Part shown: positions 20,754-31,155 of the stretch, one piece after another
How positions within the stretch are numbered: the first letter of the stretch is position 1
Layout: the number at the start of each line of letters is the position of its first letter
DNA from: Candidatus Pacearchaeota archaeon
Lineage (GTDB): Archaea > Nanobdellota > Nanobdellia > UBA10117 > JAFCGA01
Reading direction: 5' to 3'
Assembly: GCA_017608345.1 (NCBI GenBank)
Contig: JAFCGA010000010.1
Coordinates: forward strand, 1 to 55,710
Length of the DNA stretch: 55,710 bases
Program-made: the position numbers and the translations under genes
Notes under the pieces: model-generated
The model's database searches: none
Told to the model about the DNA's origin: nothing
What the model saw: only the letters and a program-made list of their open reading frames with translations

Positions 20754-23700
20754 TTAAGATTTATATCTTTTTCTTTTCTTATCACTATGAACTATGAGCA
20801 TAATCGCCATAAACCCGATTCCGAGGATTACTAGCCAGCTCATCAATCCACTAGACGCAGATAGCTCTTCGAAAATCTTTGTTGCTGATCCAGATATTTT
20901 AATTTGGCTGAGGGCAGGTATTTCAGCAACAATTGATGTATCTTCGCTAACGTCTTCATCTACTGCTTCATCGTTTGGCTTCTCGATTTTATCCCCCGTG
21001 ATGGCAAAATAGCTGAAACCCGGAGTAGCAGATCTGAAGACTAGAACCTGATCAGATTCGCTAATTAAAACGGTTGTTAGCGAAGTCCATTCTCCGGCAG
21101 AGAATTTCTCCATTCGGATAGTTCCCTGTTTTATTTTATTCTCCCGGATCCAATCAGTTGTCACAGCGAAAGATATTGACGCGGAGTCTACTAAACTGCT
21201 AGCAACAGAAGGTGTGCTGATATCTAAATATTGGTAAACTGGCTTATCCGGTGCTCCAATTTTCTTAGGTGCTTGCTTCAGAGCTGAAGTAGATATGATT
21301 AAATCTTCTAAGTCCCTTTCAAAAGAAATTTCGATATTTAATATAGCGATGTTCTCGTCTTTAACTTCTAATTTCACCGGGATATTTGCGGTTATTTCTT
21401 TGACAACCTTTCCCACCGAAGCAACCGCGTCGGGTATTCCGATCTCAGCAGTAGGTGTAGTTATCATTTGGTTTGAATCTTCAGTTGAAATGCTTCTTCG
21501 TACGATGCTTGAACTGCTGCTGCTCTCGCTTTCAGATAATACTGGCGTAGCATATACACAGTCATAATTATTATTCGCAGGCGCATTATTATCTGATTCT
21601 AGTTCAGTGGCGGAGTAGCAGCTATTTGTATCTGCGTAGAATCCAAGTATAAGATTATTTGACTGGCAAGAAGTATTGATTTCATACCAATCTGGGGTGC
21701 AGTAGTCACAGCTAGTTGATTGATATTCATTGAAGGTCTGGTTTACTATTTCATTACACTCATTAGCATCATATTGAATTTTGCTTCTAGACTGAATTTG
21801 AGTATCATTTGTTAGGCAATCTCCTGAATTTGTCCATTCGCTCCAGCTAGTATTTATTCTACTTGGTGTACATGCATCACAAGTATCAGAGTAATACTCA
21901 TAGAAAGTTTGATTGCTTACTTCGCCACAACTATTTGTATCATATTGTATCGAACTTCTGCGTTTATCTACGGTATCATTACTATAACACTCACTTATAC
22001 TTTCCCAACCACTCCAAGAAGTATTAGTCAAACTAGGAGTACAATAATCACAAGCAATGTCTTGATATTCATAGAAAGTTTGATTGCTGATTTCTCCACA
22101 GAAACTTGAGTCATACTGAGTTAGTTCTCTGCGCTGATTAATGGTATCCTCAGGGTTACATTCACTAATATCTTCCCATTCGCTCCAACTTGTATTTGTG
22201 CTGCTCGGAGTGCAAAAGTCGCAAGATTGAGGAGAGAATTCAGAATAATCCCCGCTGTATTGATCAGATGCTAAGCTAGTCTGCACATAACAGCCATTAG
22301 CGTCCGTTGCAGTATCACATGGCTGCTGATCACTTGAATTGCAGTCGCCATATGCCGAACAGCTCCAGTCTGGAACGCAATAATCACAAGCAATGTCTTG
22401 GTATTGATAGAAGGTTTGATTCTCTACCTCTGCACAGCCGTATAGATCATACTGCGTTAGCTCTTTTCGCTGCTGGATCGTATCATTTGTTCCACACGCA
22501 GATATATTGCTCCAATCGCTCCAAGTGGTGTTGGCTAGATCTGGCGTGCAGAAGTCACAAGCTTCCACAGTTCCATTGTCTCCAGGCAAGTTAGCGGTTG
22601 TTCCGCATTCATTTAAATCAGCATAATACTTAATCTTCTGGTCTGAAACATTGCAGTCAGTATATTGAACCGTCCAATCTTCAGTACAAGCACTTTCATT
22701 ATATTCTGAGTAACTGATATTTAGATAAGGAATTAGAGAAGCATTTGAATAATCTCCAGAATAATACTGATCAGGATTGCCTGCTCCAGTTGTTCTAAGC
22801 GCTAAAGTGATATTACTATCACCTTCTGAGTACCCTTTTGTGACCATATTTGTAGCTGTCCAGCATTGCCAGCTGCCATCTTGGTTTCCATCAGTGAGTA
22901 CGCTGCTCTCTGCAGTTAGATTACAATTGCCACTATTGTCAAAGCTGACTCCGCAAGGCTGATTGCTCCAAGTTATACTGGTTTCAGTCTGTCCCGCCCA
23001 GCTATTGACGTGATAAGAGCTTATTGTCTGGCTAGCTTGATCATTAATTAAGTAGAAACACGCCTGCGCGCCGTCTATTGTTTGATTAACAGGCACGCTC
23101 GAGATGTCGAACATAGCATAGATTACGCTGTCCGTAGGATCTGCTCGTACTTCTAAGGTGGTTTCAGCACCGTAGTTAGTACTAACCATATTACTTTGGA
23201 CATAAGAATCCCAAAGCGTATATTCCGTACCAGCTTCTCCGCCGCCAGTTCCGGTAACTGTAGCTACATAATATCTCTGACCATCGATTATATCTTCAGT
23301 TAGAGAAACGTTATTTATTGTTTCGCCTACAGAAATCCAGAATTTGCCCGGACATTTAGGATGTACTTCATCTAAACTAGCTGCGTCTGGACAAATATAA
23401 ACTCGCCCCTTTCCCGAGGAAGGTATATACAGTGTTTTATTAACATCAATATGAACATTTGCATCATCAGATTCAGGGAGATGCAAGACCGACTTCTTCT
23501 CTTCAATATTAGTCTGAGCAACTAGGTTTTTTAGATCTAAATCCTCATCGAGATTTTCAAAGTTGACTTCTAACTTCCCAATTTTTTTATTGTCTTTTGT
23601 TTTGATAGCGACAACTTTTTCTTCAATCTGTCCAGTTGTTTCTAAATCTACATTCTCGTTAGCTTCGTCGACTATTTTCAAATCATCGTTGAGATTCACA

Positions 23701-26700
23701 ATCTTCCTTGGCGCGAGAGTATCTGCGTATCCTGCCTTTACTCTGTCGATTAGGATTCCATTGCGTCCGACGTAGAGATCAAACCCGTCATTGCTGCTTC
23801 CTTCTAGCTTCTTTAAGGTGACGCCGTACCACCGCCACTCCCCGCGCTTCATTGTGACTGCGCCGAGCTTATTTCTTGAGTTTTCCTCATAAATATTTAG
23901 TCTAGCTCTCTTATTAATTGGCTTTGCGTACACCCAGATTCTGTGAGTATTTGTTAAGTTCTCAGCAAATTCTACGTGAAGCCGCTGATTAGCTAATTCT
24001 AGCGTATCATTATCTCTTGAGATTGCTTCTGAGAATTTATCATCTATGAAAGCATATCTGTTAGTCCTTCTTTCAGCACCAGTTATATTAATCTCGTCTA
24101 GTGCAGTAGTATAATTTAATGTGAACTTAGGCCAGAGAAGCGGATTTTCATGATCGCCAGAGACAAATGTTTTAGTTCCAGCACTATTCGAAGCAGACAT
24201 TAATAGAACTCCATAATTCCTTTTATCGCCATAGACCATGCTCTGAACTAGTTGCTTTATATCCCATGTGTACCAGCCTTCTTCAGTTACAGCAGTAGTT
24301 CCCCAGACTGTATCATCAATAGCTCCGCCAGGTGTCCATGAAGTTCTACCATTGTATGTAACCCAAGTTGCACCATTTTTAGATACAGTACTAGTTCCAG
24401 TTCCTTCTCTCCAACTTCGGCTTACTCGATAAATGTCTACTTCTGCAGGAAGGGTATCTCTATTTGCGTTGGATACATAGAACTCAAGGCGAGCATCAGT
24501 TATAGTTGCGTAGTCTGGAATCTCCCCGAGATCGAATTTGATTAATATCCGCGTATTCCCATTATCTTGCATCTCTAATTCTGGCGATGCGCCATAGTTT
24601 TTATTCGATGGGCTAGAAATAATCATTGTATCTGCAAAGGGTAAAACTTCGCTGAATGCTGGATCTTCAGGAGTCAAGGTAAAATCATATTTCTTTCTAG
24701 GCGTGATTTTTTGTACAAAAGTCCAATTGTCATCTGGACACACTTTGTTCGCAAAATCCCAGCTAGTACATTTGAATAGCGCTTTTCCTTTTGCTCGTCT
24801 TGCAGTGATTTTTGCGCTTGTGAAATTGATTGCAGTCGGATCGATAGCATAGACTTTCTCGTAATTTTCTAGCTCAACATCTTCCACTGCGAATTTATCT
24901 AATTTAATAAATTCTTTAACATCGTCAAATACTTCAACCTCTTCGAAATAAGCGCGAGTTATAGTTTGTCGTTTAGGACGAACATCTACATCATAAATTC
25001 CTTCTTTAACAACGACCTTAACATCATTCCGCTTAGTTCTGACGCGTTTATTAGTAACAGCATCTCGTAAATAAAGTCGAGAGTCTACTCGTTCATCTTG
25101 AGCGTCCTTGACTTCTCCAATAATAACATACTTCTCTGGCTTTCCGAATTCAAAAGCCTCAGAGTTATTTCCGACTTTGATTCTAAAGAACTTATCTTCG
25201 CTATAATCTGGTACAGTTAGAGTTATATTTTCATGGGCTTGCGCAATATCTGAGCTTAATGAATAATCTAACTTACCAATAATCCGGATTGGCAATGGCT
25301 CTTCTGAATCATGGTGGAATATTATCTCGAGAGTTCCTTCTGAGTCAATAACTGAGGAGTCAATTATAGCATCGTATCTTGCATCGTTTTTAATCTTTAG
25401 ATAGCTTACTTCAGCGATCTCGCTTTCGGATTCGATGAAAGCAAGAGTATTAGCGCTTACTTCAACTTCATATTCTTCTCCTTGCGTGATTAATTTATGG
25501 AACTTGAAGTCATCCCTGCATCTCTGACGCCTAAAATTCCATCTATCGCAGCGATATAATTTTGATCCCTTCGCTTCAACCGTTAACTTAATGGATTCAT
25601 AGTCAACCGCAGGCTGTATGGCATAACTTTGTGGAATACCTGCAATTCGCAGATCTTCGTATAATGTAGCTAGCTCATAAGTATCTTCAGTGAAAGAAAC
25701 TTGATTTAGCACTAAACTTTTTATCGTATGCTCTTCAAAAGTGCTAGTTATATTATACTTCTTTTCCTTGCTTAAATATATAATATTCCCGTCAAATAAC
25801 TCTTCATCAACGCCTTCGATCTCAAAGCTAGCAGGAATTGACTCCCCTTCGGAATCTAGAATATTAAACTCAATTTCTGCAGTTTGCTCAGCTAAGTTTC
25901 TAAGAGAATAATGAATAGAGTTTATATTAAGCGTTGTTCCTTCTTCGACTTCGATTATTAATTTATAATTCGTCTCATTGAGATTTCCCGCAGGAAGGGT
26001 ACATGTATCCTTGCAGATCGAGGAGAATCGCTGTACGTTTTCTACTTCAGTTGTAACATTCGCTTCGATAAGTTCTTCAGTAATATTCCCTTCTTCAATT
26101 ATTGTCTCTTCAGTAAGATTAGTTTCTTCCAGCAGCGCAGTAGTATCATTAATCGTTGTTGTTTCATTTAATAGCAGCTCAGAGGTTACGTTATCTTCTC
26201 CGATAGTTTCATTATTAATTAATTCTTCAGTTTCATTAGAATCTTCAATACTATCTGCGATTGGAGCTTCTGCGCTTTCATTCCCAGCTTCTTCAGTTTC
26301 ATTTGATTCACTAGCTGAACTTTCTTCTCCTTCTTGCGATTCAGGGACGTTAAGCTCAGTTTCGTCAGCAGGCGTGGATTCTCCTTCGATATCTTCTACA
26401 GGGGTTTCCGGGTCCTCTGCTACTTCTTCCGCAGGTTCTTCAGCTGCATCATCTCCTGATGTTTCAATAACGTGACCTTCTTCACTTGCGCTCATACCTG
26501 TAATAGATATCATTAGTCCAGTAATCGAGCTAGGTGAAGTGTCAATATCTTCTCCGTCAAAAATGATATATTTCTCAGCCCCGTCTATAAGATATACTCT
26601 CGCATTTCCTTCGCCAATAACTGACCCCGATATGCCTAGCGAAGTTAAATAAAATTCTTCAGGAGAATCAATTATATCCCAATCATACTCTTGATTGGCG

Positions 26701-27044
26701 CTGAACTCCAAATTAATCTGTTGAGTATGTGATTCAGCACCTTCAACAACTAGTCCAGTTATTCCAGGGTAATTTAATCCTAAAAATAGCACGATTAATA
26801 GCGCTAGCATAAGCGAAGCAGATCTAATAAATTTATTCTTCGGAGTAGTTTTTTTATGCGTTTGCTTCCCAATAAGGAGATTCTTCCGCTTTTCTCGTTT
26901 GTGAGCAGAGATAGTCTTGTTTACTAAGGATTCATCCCAGCCAGCATGCACTAATTTATGTTTAGCATAATTCAAGTCTAGCTTGCTTTCCTTACAGCTA
27001 TGCAAGAAATTTTCTATCTGCTTTTTATCTGAATTAGTAGTCAT
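20754..27044 (-). CDS. Giant surface protein: UBA-like N-terminus, two DNRLRE domains, Cys-rich repeats, PGF-pre-PGF domain
   Basis: A complete 2096-residue protein. Residues 1-50 resemble a small UBA-like helical domain with the AGW motif and should be cytoplasmic. A membrane segment lies at 74-92, followed by Ile-Thr-Gly at 95-97. Next come an acidic Glu/Thr/Asn linker (about 195-340), several beta domains, DNRLRE-type domains at about 795-975 and 1270-1450, seven Cys-rich repeats (about 1450-1800), a PGF-pre-PGF domain (about 1865-2018) ending in TPGFSYFAITGDK, and a final membrane helix with a basic tail. The two membrane segments would hold the bulk outside. Role inferred: adhesion or envelope structure. 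It is divergently transcribed from the surface operon at 27175. Confidence 0.88.
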   Translation of the reverse strand: MTTNSDKKQIENFLHSCKESKLDLNYAKHKLVHAGWDESLVNKTISAHKREKRKNLLIGKQTHKKTTPKNKFIRSASLMLALLIVLFLGLNYPGITGLVVEGAESHTQQINLEFSANQEYDWDIIDSPEEFYLTSLGISGSVIGEGNARVYLIDGAEKYIIFDGEDIDTSPSSITGLMISITGMSASEEGHVIETSGDDAAEEPAEEVAEDPETPVEDIEGESTPADETELNVPESQEGEESSASESNETEEAGNESAEAPIADSIEDSNETEELINNETIGEDNVTSELLLNETTTINDTTALLEETNLTEETIIEEGNITEELIEANVTTEVENVQRFSSICKDTCTLPAGNLNETNYKLIIEVEEGTTLNINSIHYSLRNLAEQTAEIEFNILDSEGESIPASFEIEGVDEELFDGNIIYLSKEKKYNITSTFEEHTIKSLVLNQVSFTEDTYELATLYEDLRIAGIPQSYAIQPAVDYESIKLTVEAKGSKLYRCDRWNFRRQRCRDDFKFHKLITQGEEYEVEVSANTLAFIESESEIAEVSYLKIKNDARYDAIIDSSVIDSEGTLEIIFHHDSEEPLPIRIIGKLDYSLSSDIAQAHENITLTVPDYSEDKFFRIKVGNNSEAFEFGKPEKYVIIGEVKDAQDERVDSRLYLRDAVTNKRVRTKRNDVKVVVKEGIYDVDVRPKRQTITRAYFEEVEVFDDVKEFIKLDKFAVEDVELENYEKVYAIDPTAINFTSAKITARRAKGKALFKCTSWDFANKVCPDDNWTFVQKITPRKKYDFTLTPEDPAFSEVLPFADTMIISSPSNKNYGASPELEMQDNGNTRILIKFDLGEIPDYATITDARLEFYVSNANRDTLPAEVDIYRVSRSWREGTGTSTVSKNGATWVTYNGRTSWTPGGAIDDTVWGTTAVTEEGWYTWDIKQLVQSMVYGDKRNYGVLLMSASNSAGTKTFVSGDHENPLLWPKFTLNYTTALDEINITGAERRTNRYAFIDDKFSEAISRDNDTLELANQRLHVEFAENLTNTHRIWVYAKPINKRARLNIYEENSRNKLGAVTMKRGEWRWYGVTLKKLEGSSNDGFDLYVGRNGILIDRVKAGYADTLAPRKIVNLNDDLKIVDEANENVDLETTGQIEEKVVAIKTKDNKKIGKLEVNFENLDEDLDLKNLVAQTNIEEKKSVLHLPESDDANVHIDVNKTLYIPSSGKGRVYICPDAASLDEVHPKCPGKFWISVGETINNVSLTEDIIDGQRYYVATVTGTGGGEAGTEYTLWDSYVQSNMVSTNYGAETTLEVRADPTDSVIYAMFDISSVPVNQTIDGAQACFYLINDQASQTISSYHVNSWAGQTETSITWSNQPCGVSFDNSGNCNLTAESSVLTDGNQDGSWQCWTATNMVTKGYSEGDSNITLALRTTGAGNPDQYYSGDYSNASLIPYLNISYSEYNESACTEDWTVQYTDCNVSDQKIKYYADLNECGTTANLPGDNGTVEACDFCTPDLANTTWSDWSNISACGTNDTIQQRKELTQYDLYGCAEVENQTFYQYQDIACDYCVPDWSCSAYGDCNSSDQQPCDTATDANGCYVQTSLASDQYSGDYSEFSPQSCDFCTPSSTNTSWSEWEDISECNPEDTINQRRELTQYDSSFCGEISNQTFYEYQDIACDYCTPSLTNTSWSGWESISECYSNDTVDKRRSSIQYDTNSCGEVSNQTFYEYYSDTCDACTPSRINTSWSEWTNSGDCLTNDTQIQSRSKIQYDANECNEIVNQTFNEYQSTSCDYCTPDWYEINTSCQSNNLILGFYADTNSCYSATELESDNNAPANNNYDCVYATPVLSESESSSSSSIVRRSISTEDSNQMITTPTAEIGIPDAVASVGKVVKEITANIPVKLEVKDENIAILNIEISFERDLEDLIISTSALKQAPKKIGAPDKPVYQYLDISTPSVASSLVDSASISFAVTTDWIRENKIKQGTIRMEKFSAGEWTSLTTVLISESDQVLVFRSATPGFSYFAITGDKIEKPNDEAVDEDVSEDTSIVAEIPALSQIKISGSATKIFEELSASSGLMSWLVILGIGFMAIMLIVHSDKKRKRYKS
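21650..22700 (-). repeat. Seven Cys-rich, partly thrombospondin-like repeats
   Basis: Four full units follow the pattern CTPxxxNTSWSxWxxIxEC...R...QYD...C.E..NQTFYEY...CDYC, about 58 residues each; three shorter units have CxxDW and the same Cys spacing. The W-x-x-W...C...R core resembles thrombospondin type 1 repeats. The even Cys counts per unit suggest disulfides outside the cell. Resemblance is judged by eye. Confidence 0.65.
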
Positions 27045-27174: not shown

Positions 27175-27414
27175 ATGAAAAATACAATGAAAAAGGATGC
27201 TTCTAAAAATACAGTATTGGCTTTGATTGTTATTGCGGTTCTCGTTTCTGCAATCGGAACTACTTTAGTGCTAAAAGATACTATCTCTGAGCAGAGTCCA
27301 GTTAAGACTAGCGCAGAAGAGGTCGGAAAAGTCAGCTTCTATGTAGTTGATGATTCAGAATCAAAAACCGCAACCGGAAAAGTTATTTTTGAAGTTGTCA
27401 ATGAGGTAGGATAA
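27175..27414 (+). CDS. Small membrane-anchored surface protein, first gene of the surface operon
   Basis: A 79-residue protein with a short basic N-terminus, one membrane helix (about 13-33) and an outer segment ending in two predicted strands. Its VGKVSFYVVD strand follows the same G-x-x-x-F-x-V pattern seen after the membrane helix in the next genes, but it lacks the Ile-Thr-Gly motif. The next ATG begins two bases after its stop. Possibly a minor subunit or cap; no family is recognised. Confidence 0.65.
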   Translation: MKNTMKKDASKNTVLALIVIAVLVSAIGTTLVLKDTISEQSPVKTSAEEVGKVSFYVVDDSESKTATGKVIFEVVNEVG

Positions 27415-27416
27415 GA

Positions 27417-28013
27417 ATGGCAAGAAGAAAATCTAAAGATATAAGTAATCGAAGTTTAGTATATTTGCTTGTAATTGCAATCGTGATTTCCCTGAGTGGA
27501 ACAATAGCTGTAATGAACCGCGGTTCAGGAATAACTGGCGCGGCAGTTTCGAATGTGACTTCCGGAACTGGAACGACTCAATTTAGCGTAGGAGACTATA
27601 TTGTTGTGAATCTGTATGATGCTACAATAAATCTAGGATTACTTAGCTTAACTGAAACTCGAAACTCAGAAGACGTAAGCGATTGGTTTGAGCTAAGCAA
27701 CGATGGCTCTGTGAATTTTGATGTCTATGCATATGGCGTGAATTCATCAGCTAGTCCATTTTCAAGTATTAGCGCGAACACGCTTCCAAATAATTACTAT
27801 AAGATACACGCAAATGAATCTGATTCAGGTACTCCAAACACCGCATATGTATTTGTACCAGCTGGAGCAGGCAACAAAGCACTGCTAGTTGATGATTTGG
27901 ATTATCAACCAGGTCAAGATACCGCCAAGATCGGAGTGCAAGTAACAATACCTGCAGATGAGACGACTGGAGCTAAGAATTCAGATGTAGTTATCTATGT
28001 GGAACAAGCTTAG
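27417..28013 (+). CDS. Surface fibre-type subunit A (TasA/camelysin-like pattern)
   Basis: A 198-residue protein. Basic N-terminus, membrane segment 12-33, Ile-Thr-Gly at 39-41, then a candidate free strand SGTGTTQFSV. The mature part has the order 'xInLG...F.lsNdGSvnfdVyayG...GvqVtIPad', an all-beta layout like TasA/camelysin fibre subunits, where an N-terminal strand completes the neighbour's sheet. It is about 45% identical by eye to the next gene, so the two look like tandem paralogues. Assignment to the TasA-like fold is inference. A T-rich stretch follows the stop. Confidence 0.65.
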   Translation: MARRKSKDISNRSLVYLLVIAIVISLSGTIAVMNRGSGITGAAVSNVTSGTGTTQFSVGDYIVVNLYDATINLGLLSLTETRNSEDVSDWFELSNDGSVNFDVYAYGVNSSASPFSSISANTLPNNYYKIHANESDSGTPNTAYVFVPAGAGNKALLVDDLDYQPGQDTAKIGVQVTIPADETTGAKNSDVVIYVEQA

Positions 28014-28044
28014 TTCCTCTTCTTTTTTTATTTAATTTATATTT

Positions 28045-28647
28045 ATGAAACGGAAAAGCAGGAAACTAAATAAACAGAAGAAAGATAAATTAAGAAGAGA
28101 AGAGCTAGCGATTGCTATCATTTCTGTTTTTGCAATTATTGCTGTGCTAAGTTTTGTAATAAAGCCAGAAGTAGATATTACTGGTGCAGCTAGTTCTGGT
28201 ACAGGAACTACTCGCTTTGAAGTAATCGGAGTTGCTTCGATAATTATAACGAACAATTCAATAAATCTTGGTCTGCTGCAAATTAATGAGACTAAAAACT
28301 CCGAGGATGTCAATGACTTCTTTAATATAACAAACGATGGGAGTGTCAATATGGATGTTTATGTATATGGTCAAGGTGCTTCTGAGACTCCCTTTACAAG
28401 CAATCTAGCAAATACTTTGCCTAATGAGTACTATAAAGTTCATGTAAATTCGGCGGAGAGTGGAACTGCGAATACAACTTATTTCCCGGTTCCTGGACCA
28501 ATATCCCAGAAAGAGTTAGTAATAAGTGATTTAAGTTATACTGACGGTTCAGATAAAGCTGCTATTGGAATACAAGTTACTGTTCCTATTGACGAAGCCC
28601 CTGGATTGAAAAACGTTGATCTTGTGATATATGCAGAGGCTCACTAA
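28045..28647 (+). CDS. Surface fibre-type subunit B, paralogue of subunit A
   Basis: A 200-residue paralogue of the preceding gene. Very basic N-terminus (1-20), membrane segment 21-39, Ile-Thr-Gly at 45-47, then SGTGTTRFEV. Shared blocks include INLGLL, ETKNSEDV, ITNDGSVNMDVYVYGQ, ANTLPNEYYKVH and IGIQVTVP. The variable surface loops differ. Two similar subunits suggest major and minor components of one polymer or a heteropolymer. The start of the next gene lies two bases after its stop. Confidence 0.65.
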   Translation: MKRKSRKLNKQKKDKLRREELAIAIISVFAIIAVLSFVIKPEVDITGAASSGTGTTRFEVIGVASIIITNNSINLGLLQINETKNSEDVNDFFNITNDGSVNMDVYVYGQGASETPFTSNLANTLPNEYYKVHVNSAESGTANTTYFPVPGPISQKELVISDLSYTDGSDKAAIGIQVTVPIDEAPGLKNVDLVIYAEAH

Positions 28648-28649
28648 GA

Positions 28650-29798
28650 ATGAGAATAAATAAATTCGTATTACTGGCTTTCACAATTGTTCTGTTCATG
28701 TCCCTAGCTCATCCAGTCTTTGCTCTTGGACTCAGTCCCCCGAAGAATGAATTTACCTTCGAGCCCAATTTTAATGGAGAGTTTGAGGTTAACATAAGGG
28801 GAGAATCTCAGCCGTTTAATGTTAAACTTATTCCTTCAGATGCATTGAAGGAATATATAGTCTTATCACAGGATTCTTTGACTGTTCCGATTAATGGGGC
28901 AACATTCAGTTACATCTTAAATTTGCCAGCTTCATTGCCACCAGGTCGCCATAAGGGAAGCATAGTGGTGGAGAAGCAAGCTGGAAGTGGCGATGCAAGC
29001 ATGTTCGGAGCAATAGAAGCTGTAGGTCATGTGGTTGCAGTAAATGTTCCGGCGCCAGGAAAGCACGCTGAAGTTAGCTTAGCGATCAAGAGTGTTAATC
29101 TGGGCGAGCCCGTTACGATGACGTTAAATATTAAGAATTTGGGTACAGAACAAATTAGTATTTCTGGAATCATAATTGAAATATTTAATGCTGAAGATAG
29201 CAAAGTGTCTGTGCTTCAATTAGCTGGTACTTCAATAGCTGCAAAAGAAGAGAAGATCCTTGAGACAAGCTGGCCAGCAGCAAATGCGAAGGCAGGAAAA
29301 TACACGGCGAAAGTTAAAGTGACTTATGGAGATAATATTGCTGAGGCAGAAGCATCTTTTCGGATTGGTGACTTAGCAGTTACTATTCTCGATCTTACTC
29401 CCAAAGAATTTCCTTCGAATAAGATAATTCCTTTCAGCATTGAAGTGGAAAGTCTCTGGAGCGAAAATATTGGCAGCGTTTTTGCAGAACTCAAGATATT
29501 AGATGGCGAGAATGAATTAAAATCTGTCAAGACCGCTCCGATTTCAGTTGATCCGTTTAAGACAGCGAGTTTAGAGGGGTATTTGGATACTAGCGAACTT
29601 GATCTTGGAGATTATGTAGCTAAGGTTCTATTAACTTATGGTGATAAGACTTCAGAGAAGGAGTTTGAGATATCTGTTGTTAAGGCAGATAATTCTTACT
29701 TGCTTATAGTTGGAATTGTTTTGCTAATCGTGATCATCTTACTAATAATCTTTGCGCTGACACGCAAATCAAAGCGTAGAGCAAATATTATTAATTAG
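28650..29798 (+). CDS. Secreted multi-Ig-like protein with C-terminal membrane anchor
   Basis: A 382-residue protein with a classic signal peptide (1-25, cleavage likely after HPVFA). Three beta-sandwich domains follow; the second resembles CARDB-type Ig domains (VNLGEPVTMTLNIKNLGTEQ). A membrane helix (about 349-371) and a basic tail KSKRR end the chain. The N-terminal domain has the PPGRHKGSIVV strand typical of Ig-like domains associated with surface polymers and of WxL-interacting (DUF916-like) proteins. Plausible role: anchor or chaperone for the subunits encoded just upstream. Confidence 0.65.
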   Translation: MRINKFVLLAFTIVLFMSLAHPVFALGLSPPKNEFTFEPNFNGEFEVNIRGESQPFNVKLIPSDALKEYIVLSQDSLTVPINGATFSYILNLPASLPPGRHKGSIVVEKQAGSGDASMFGAIEAVGHVVAVNVPAPGKHAEVSLAIKSVNLGEPVTMTLNIKNLGTEQISISGIIIEIFNAEDSKVSVLQLAGTSIAAKEEKILETSWPAANAKAGKYTAKVKVTYGDNIAEAEASFRIGDLAVTILDLTPKEFPSNKIIPFSIEVESLWSENIGSVFAELKILDGENELKSVKTAPISVDPFKTASLEGYLDTSELDLGDYVAKVLLTYGDKTSEKEFEISVVKADNSYLLIVGIVLLIVIILLIIFALTRKSKRRANIIN

Positions 29799-29815
29799 CG
29801 TTACTTATTACTAGC

Positions 29816-30229
29816 ATGAAGCCGAAATTCGTACTTATTTTGATAGTATTTGTATTGATAAGCTGTATTTTTTGGTATATTAACTCCGCTAATCAAATCA
29901 AAGATTCTCAGATTATTGAGATGGATTTGTATGTCAAGAATTCATCGACAGGAATAAATCTGGATACTGATGCAGTGCATTTTGGAACGCTAAATCCTGC
30001 GGAGGCGAGCCGTGCTACGCGCGAGGTTACGATTAGTCATGTTCATTCTCGATCTTGCGATGTTCGTATTGTTTCTGCGGGCGAGCTCTCGAAATGGGTC
30101 TCATTGTCTGATGATAGATTTGTGCTTAATGAGGGAGCGAATAAGTCAATTCAAGTTACATTAAATCTGCCATCGGATGCAGAGTATGGCTATTATGGAG
30201 GAATGCTGATTGCTAACTTGAGATGCTGA
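29816..30229 (+). CDS. Membrane-anchored single Ig-like domain protein
   Basis: A 137-residue protein with an N-terminal membrane helix (5-22) and one Ig-like domain. The strand pattern HFGTLNPAEASRATREVTISH...VSLSDDRFVLNEGANKSIQVTLNLPSDAEYGYYGGML is that of bacterial/archaeal Ig domains of the DUF916/chaperone type. It lacks a C-terminal anchor. Its end overlaps the next start by 7 bases, indicating coupled translation. Function unknown; a periplasm-side assembly factor is one possibility. Confidence 0.6.
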   Translation: MKPKFVLILIVFVLISCIFWYINSANQIKDSQIIEMDLYVKNSSTGINLDTDAVHFGTLNPAEASRATREVTISHVHSRSCDVRIVSAGELSKWVSLSDDRFVLNEGANKSIQVTLNLPSDAEYGYYGGMLIANLRC

Positions 30230-31155
30230 AAGTGACTAATAAATTGCTCGCGGGTTTAATCTTCATCTGGATAGCAGTTTCCTTACTCAATAGCTTTGTT
30301 TTGATTACTGGCAGGAGCACTTCCACTATAGGGACAGTTAATTTTACTGTTATTGCGCCAGACGTGGTTCCAGTTTATATGGAAAATCGAGAGCCGGGTC
30401 GCCCACCCACAGTTATTCTTGATAGAACTACTGGCGCAGTTACTAATTCGAAGACTATCGAAGAATTGCTATCTATAATAACTCCTCAAGATATAGGGAT
30501 GAATATAGAGCTTACCGCTAGAGATATTAGGGTAAGAAAACTTAATGTCTTAACTATGACCACGACCATAACTGCGAATAATATCAAAGCTGCTCGCGAG
30601 CATGCAAGTGATCCGGAGTTGTTGCAGCTTATTGATAAAATAGCGCAGTCTATCGAATCGGAGAGCATTTTAGATGTTCCGGTGGTCACTACGATGATTA
30701 CTTACGGCATTCGATCAATAACTAGCGGGCAGGAAACATACGCGTCTAAATTAATTCATTATATTGTCGCAGAAGAAGCTGGAGATATAACTCTGATTGT
30801 TCTGATTCCGAAGGATATGTCTTCGCAGATCGATAATGTGTTTTTCTTTGTAGAAGATCCAAAAGTGTTGCAAGCAGATCCAGTAGTACAATGGAAATTT
30901 TCTGAAGTAAGCAAGTGGGATAATCGAGAGATTTATTATTATGTTAAGAAGGAGCTGGATTCGATAGATACAATACCTTTGGCAACTATGCCCGCTAAGA
31001 AAGTCGAGCCAGTAGCTCTTCCAATTAGTCTGCGGTTTGAGAAAGGCGCGCAGTTTTCGACGTGGCCAATAGCAGCGATAATTATGATTGTTGTAGGAAT
31101 ACTCGCAGGATATTATTTGCTAACTCAGAAGCAGAAAAAGAGAAAGCGGTATTAG
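30223..31155 (+). CDS. Membrane protein closing the surface operon
   Basis: A 310-residue protein with an N-terminal membrane segment (8-27) directly followed by Ile-Thr-Gly (28-30) and a GTVNFTV strand like the other operon members. A soluble outer domain of mixed helix and strand covers about 40-275. A second membrane helix (about 279-299) and the tail KQKKRKRY follow. The outer domain resembles no family I know. It overlaps the convergent PIN gene by 4 bases. By position it should take part in assembling or anchoring the surface structure. Confidence 0.6.
   Translation: MLKVTNKLLAGLIFIWIAVSLLNSFVLITGRSTSTIGTVNFTVIAPDVVPVYMENREPGRPPTVILDRTTGAVTNSKTIEELLSIITPQDIGMNIELTARDIRVRKLNVLTMTTTITANNIKAAREHASDPELLQLIDKIAQSIESESILDVPVVTTMITYGIRSITSGQETYASKLIHYIVAEEAGDITLIVLIPKDMSSQIDNVFFFVEDPKVLQADPVVQWKFSEVSKWDNREIYYYVKKELDSIDTIPLATMPAKKVEPVALPISLRFEKGAQFSTWPIAAIIMIVVGILAGYYLLTQKQKKRKRY

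Follow-up and report, generated by a model that had tools for sequence, protein, structure and literature searches.

A conserved archaeal operon with strand-only anchors that may encode a donor-strand-complemented surface system

The stretch of DNA analysed here (the window; 55,710 nucleotides (nt), contig JAFCGA010000010.1 of assembly GCA_017608345.1) comes from a Candidatus Pacearchaeota archaeon, a small, probably host-attached organism, and carries a compact operon of six genes, g1 to g6 (Table 1). All six open reading frames are on the + strand with spacings of 2, 31, 2, 17 and -7 nt, and each encodes an exported or membrane-anchored protein, as proposed in a first-pass annotation made from the sequence without database searches. 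Hydropathy agrees with the helices proposed there, identifying one N-terminal helix in g1, g2, g3 and g5, and both an N- and a C-terminal helix in g4 and g6. The products of g2 and g3, referred to as S (subunit), are 48% identical to one another and represent the only two full copies of S in the genome (1.05 Mb, 88% complete); they had been described as paralogous all-beta subunits, which fits both this identity and the all-beta core of the g3 model (below).

Table 1 Genes and candidate features of the g1 to g6 operon.
Feature	Position	Strand	Description or basis
g1	27175..27414	+	79 aa; membrane helix, linker, two G-K-V-x-F-x-V copies
g1 candidate donor strand 1, GKVSFYV (residues 51-57)	27325..27345	+	sequence
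g1 candidate donor strand 2, GKVIFEV (residues 68-74)	27376..27396	+	sequence
g2	27417..28013	+	198 aa; S: membrane helix, ITG, candidate donor strand, putative acceptor domain
g2 candidate donor strand, TGTTQFSV	27567..27590	+	sequence
g3	28045..28647	+	200 aa; S, paralogue of g2
g3 candidate donor strand, TGTTRFEV	28201..28224	+	unpaired in predicted monomer
g3 all-beta putative acceptor domain (~residues 62-200)	28228..28644	+	mostly high pLDDT; Foldseek mainly donor-strand pilins
g4	28650..29798	+	382 aa; signal peptide, Ig-like domains, C-terminal membrane helix; WxLIP-like
g5	29816..30229	+	137 aa; membrane-anchored single Ig-like domain, related to first domain of g4
g6	30223..31155	+	310 aa; double-anchored; N-terminal candidate donor strand, variable middle
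g6 candidate donor strand, IGTVNFTV	30328..30351	+	sequence; top motif score within the window
aa, amino acids; Ig, immunoglobulin; pLDDT, predicted local distance difference test.

Searches with g3 recovered this gene set from other genomes of the order and of the class, and alignments were made for S, g4, g1 and g5. In the class-level sample g4 was matched in 152/280 genomes and S in 101/280; g4 was present as well in 98 of those 101 (Fisher P about 1e-31). In a phylum-wide sample S was matched in 102/237 genomes, all of those listed being from the same class. The typical order, from 34 loci, is LARGE (giant proteins of relatives with an S-domain at the C-terminus) - a membrane-helix protein of ~165 aa - g4 - g1 - S - g4 - g5 - g6. 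g4 directly follows S in 24/35 cases, and LARGE is followed by g4 in 13/26 and by another protein with an N-terminal helix in 8 more. g1 lies directly before S in all 24 identified cases, but nearness to S is part of the definition of g1, and g6 lies directly after g5 in 17/22, but was defined by following it. The synteny search suggested in the first-pass annotation thus finds both gene set and gene order kept across relatives of the class. The ~165-aa protein between LARGE and the first g4 (L104, L107, L115, L116 and others) has an N-terminal helix and a recurring IDDNxEFSSP. Just upstream of g1 in two loci (L031:2619-3464, -; L121:3986-4849, +) are genes for proteins with one membrane helix, ITG, a probable coiled-coil in the N-terminal part and an S-like domain (E 2e-6 and 1e-5), a possible further component of the system.

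The pattern G-(T/K)-x-x-(F/Y)-x-V, noticed in the first-pass annotation as a strand common to four of the proteins, is present in g1, g2, g3 and g6; in g1 the copy GKVSFYV had been recognised and a second, GKVIFEV, overlooked. The pattern alone is weak evidence, as it also turns up in 30 of 161 controls (19%), all proteins with an N-terminal helix, which gives P of about 0.013 for its presence in four of six operon proteins, and it was therefore tested by conservation in relatives. There, 21/24 g1 proteins have it (Fisher P 5e-11), as do 11/17 g6 proteins (P 1e-4). A position-weight matrix built from strands of S only, and scored on g1, g4, g5 and g6 against controls, separated g1 (area under the curve (AUC) 0.86, P 7e-9) and g6 (AUC 0.82, P 9e-6) from the controls, with g4 and g5 no different from them. 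The AUC for g6 is probably an underestimate, as several top-scoring proteins that had not been assigned are encoded at the end of clusters lacking g5. The five best places for the S profile over the whole genome are g2, g3, g1 (E 4e-4, model positions 1-51), g6 (E 0.008, positions 1-52) and g5 (E 0.02); as g5 does not have the strand, these weak scores may partly reflect membrane-helix composition.

The make-up of g1, a single membrane helix joined by a linker to one or two strands, recurs with hardly any further sequence in 33 counterparts from relatives (34 were listed, with L090 left out as seemingly spurious). In alignments g1 falls on the N-terminus of S, and the strand is the sole conserved part of g1 besides the helix. 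Judged by sequence, g1 is a headless S, with the same membrane helix, linker and strand and without the domain; it is unusual for a protein to comprise hardly more than one or two beta-strands on a membrane anchor.

LARGE proteins, of up to several thousand residues, were identified by matches of the S profile to their extreme C-terminus. These matches begin at about position 46 of the S model, i.e. at the strand and without the helix, and the S-domain is always C-terminal, with 0-7 residues remaining in all clear cases. It is usually preceded by the end of an FN3-like domain (YYWxVRAxDG...WSxxxxFxI), the last strand of which occupies the position of the free TGTxNVTV strand in S, and FG-GAP or LamG-type domains, of the sort that adhesins typically have, are present in some LARGE proteins. 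The first-pass annotation had identified the parts of the operon and overlooked these giant proteins of relatives. Beside the operon, a divergent gene (20754-27044, -) encodes a giant surface protein of 2096 aa ending in PGF-pre-PGF and a C-terminal helix; its N-terminal part consists of a helical, probably cytosolic segment, a membrane helix and ITGLVV, followed by DNRLRE/CBM96 domains. A similar N-terminal segment, judged by eye, is present in two LARGE proteins (L029:1827-7733 and L105:11400-13682).

For g4 the proposed architecture (signal peptide, Ig protein, C-terminal anchor) stands, but a relationship to WxLIP proteins of csc clusters had been missed. WxLIP_HBD (PF11797) was matched by 8/10 g4 proteins, above cut-off in some relatives only (34.7 and 30.9 bits against a curated cut-off of 28.9). 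DUF916 was not detected in g4, and PF06030 was absent among the Pfam matches, no dedicated search having been made for it. The g4 and g5 profiles cross-match and g5 resembles the first domain of g4. From the PF11797 matches g4 is possibly a distant relative of WxLIP of Gram-positive csc/WxL clusters; membership of the set was not accepted because no WxL motif, PF13731 or DUF916 was found.

S had no match in Pfam, NCBIfam or PDB sequences (none at E<=10 for the S profile against PDB chains), and a scan of the sequence collection with g3 gave no match. The predicted g3 monomer (mean pLDDT 79.6, predicted template modelling score (pTM) 0.64) has an ordered all-beta core, with residues 39-65, which contain the strand, unpaired; block 51-60 has mean pLDDT 61 and forms no strand. 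The best Foldseek matches are TLP-1a/b (9IKJ/9IKK; E 9e-5 and 4e-4), followed by FimA/F/G, PapE, CS20, Csu and Pyrodictium cannulae. The single-subunit prediction proposed in the first-pass annotation left the strand free and matched mostly donor-strand pilins. Donation by g1 was modelled on a natural same-frame S+g1 pair from a relative (L089), translating its single stop codon as Q. The alignment that contained g1 rows (A6) was set aside because it placed g1 on the N-terminus of S and not on the g1 part of the query. In this read-through model the g1 motif GMVALNV forms a seven-residue strand (252-258), though no aligned row covers it, and GTVKLEV of S itself forms none, which is suggestive of donation by g1. 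Self-complemented pilins (FimA and CsuA/B, C-terminally extended or otherwise; 6s09, 2jty, 6fm5) are among the Foldseek matches of this model and share its topology. The earlier proposal of a shared donor strand thus gains from conservation, from the predicted fold and, at low confidence, from this g1 strand. Tandem S-S read-throughs are also found in L086 and L103; they were passed over for modelling, since rows with a single domain would all stack on one of the two copies.

In the arrangement that we propose, g2 and g3 would each combine an N-terminal donor strand with an all-beta acceptor domain missing one strand, and the strand of one S, G-x-x-x-(F/V/L)-x-V, would fill the groove of the next S or, where a giant adhesin is present, of its C-terminal S-domain. 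The donor-only proteins g1 and g6 would fill the last groove, tying the chain to the membrane, and g4 and its single-domain relative g5 may be membrane-tethered Ig proteins that hold the S-domain or hand it over, in the way predicted for WxLIP with WxL. Donor-only (g1, g6), donor-plus-acceptor (S) and acceptor-only (LARGE) components would together specify a directed chain from membrane to adhesin. The motif [ILVFM]TG is found shortly after the helix in 30/35 S and 10/17 g6, and in 0/24 g1, 0/49 g4 and 0/22 g5, and is a candidate processing or release site on the basis of this distribution; a cut there would free S, and g1 would stay anchored. It is also seen after the N-terminal helix of some giant proteins. 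If the helix of S is kept, the product would be a membrane-bound platform or coat and not a fibre.

We put the probability that the operon encodes a donor-strand-complemented surface system at about 0.6. Strand complementation of some form is likewise probable, and the choice between a long fibre and a short membrane platform or coat is nearly balanced. Several observations weigh against this reading. The membrane helix of S is apparently uncleaved, which would limit the length of a fibre, and no LARGE partner was found by the S profile in the window's own genome, at 88% completeness. Foldseek TM-scores for g3 are modest, at about 0.5 or below, for which the presence of the membrane helix in the query is part of the reason, and TLP-1a/b were not identified in the open-licence literature searched. 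In the read-through model the g1 strand has low pLDDT (about 52-55) and comes without an interface score, and the top Foldseek matches of that model are GH123/PapD-like Ig domains, ahead of the pilins.

A non-polymeric docking platform resembling WxL/csc systems, in which S and LARGE domains would lie on the membrane surface, each receiving its missing strand from g1, g6 or g4, and adhesins would be anchored non-covalently without any fibre, has a chance only a little short of even. The confidence placed in this platform overlaps with that placed in our best explanation because both rest on strand complementation. It would account for the parallel between this gene set and cscA-D (PMC1534035), the PF11797 matches of g4, above cut-off in some relatives, the strand insertion predicted for WxLIP (PMC10599100) and the helix retained in S, but not for the lack of any WxL motif or PF13731 match or for the presence of donor strand and acceptor in a single S chain, which is the arrangement of polymerising pilins; archaea are also not expected to have peptidoglycan. 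A fuller form of the donor-strand system, held tentatively as a lesser possibility, would be an usher-less pilus for DPANN attachment with giant tip adhesins, a shaft of ITG-released S, headless, donor-only g1-type base anchors and a dedicated membrane-tethered Ig chaperone whose gene lies beside those of acceptor proteins, with WxL clusters as its cousin. It is unlikely that these are ordinary Ig-type surface proteins in which the shared strand, never exchanged, simply opens a domain or reflects a membrane-proximal sequence bias: the shortness of the motif, its frequency in controls and the common Ig-like folds of g4 and g5 would suit this, but g1 conserves the strand with no domain to hold it, the strand of S is unpaired in two models and the separation from controls in relatives is strong. 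Type IV pilin-like subunits with the N-terminal helix as filament core are very improbable, despite a hydrophobic N-terminal helix followed by a beta domain and a T2SSF-type platform in the genome, as that platform is on another contig (C4) and the inspected clusters and their immediate surroundings show no assembly ATPase or platform gene; a flexible linker follows the helix, and donor-strand pilins account for the pilin-fold matches.

Promoter and terminator scans were uninformative apart from a hairpin with a T-rich run directly 3' of g2 (28001-28030, +), not above chance overall, which possibly causes partial termination between g2 and g3.

Most surface proteins of DPANN archaea lack annotation, and the way in which these organisms attach to their hosts is still in question. 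The gene set described here, which was detected in some 36-43% of the genomes sampled at class or phylum level and whose S has no family model, offers a testable assembly code of strand givers, takers and proteins that do both. A literature search limited to open-licence papers found no description of it, and a conserved DPANN surface-protein set with strand-only anchors is apparently undescribed. If the proposed arrangement is correct, it would provide an usher-free route to archaeal donor-strand surface structures and a link to Gram-positive WxL clusters.

Comparison with known systems gave several partial likenesses. S, with its candidate donor strand, resembles TasA/TapA/camelysin and AbpA in the plan of small all-beta subunits with an N-terminal donor strand, and the donor strand of TapA, an accessory protein, is like the subunit's own (PMC9674648, PMC10151520). 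The TasA/camelysin-type identity suggested for the subunits in the first-pass annotation was not borne out, with no PF12389 in the genome or in 44 members of the S alignment and no PDB sequence match; TasA was not among the 50 structural matches shown, TapA has an Ig domain of its own whereas g1 has none, and LARGE, g4, g5 and g6 are additional here. No SipW-type signal peptidase is encoded among the six genes, and the sole signal-peptidase-like match of the genome, on contig C7, is below cut-off.

Type IV pili were rejected, as no platform or ATPase gene is present in the clusters inspected (signal class judged by eye); a T2SSF-type platform gene elsewhere in the genome (G000:C4:37230-38374, -) probably belongs to a separate type IV pilus-like system. 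Sulfolobus threads, for which donor strand complementation has been shown (PMC9715654), and Pyrodictium cannulae are archaeal surface filaments or tubes, and cannulae are among the g3 matches. The thread protein Saci_0406 is not a family match, there being no PDB sequence match to the S profile, and threads differ in their gene set, being described with a signal peptidase I site and a single putative cap protein. Chaperone-usher pili resemble the proposed arrangement in a predicted pilin-like fold missing one strand, to which the Foldseek matches and both models point with low confidence for the inserted strand, in donor-plus-acceptor shaft subunits, an acceptor-only tip adhesin with a C-terminal pilin domain and PapD-like Ig proteins encoded alongside. 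Membership was rejected since no outer-membrane usher (PF00577) was found in the genome, and here there is no outer membrane, S has a membrane helix, some anchors would be donor-only and the Ig partner is membrane-tethered.

The csc cluster encodes CscA (WxLIP; Ig-Ig-transmembrane, 320-400 aa), the small WxL protein CscB, the large WxL protein CscC with its domain C-terminal and CscD, a tiny anchored mini-LPXTG protein (PMC1534035), and a gap in WxL is predicted to be filled by a strand from WxLIP (PMC10599100). Small and large proteins with a common C-terminal domain, together with a tiny anchored protein, are likewise found in one cluster in the relatives, with exported proteins only, an Ig-Ig-transmembrane partner and the g4 match to PF11797. 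Membership was rejected, with no PF13731 match and no conserved W-x-L in the S alignment; in place of LPXTG there are N-terminal membrane-helix anchors, the candidate donor strand is on S and the mini-anchor, and the operon is archaeal, without peptidoglycan, and has the extra genes g5 and g6. By analogy, the operon may work like a csc/WxL cluster without belonging to that family, with distant kinship possible for g4.

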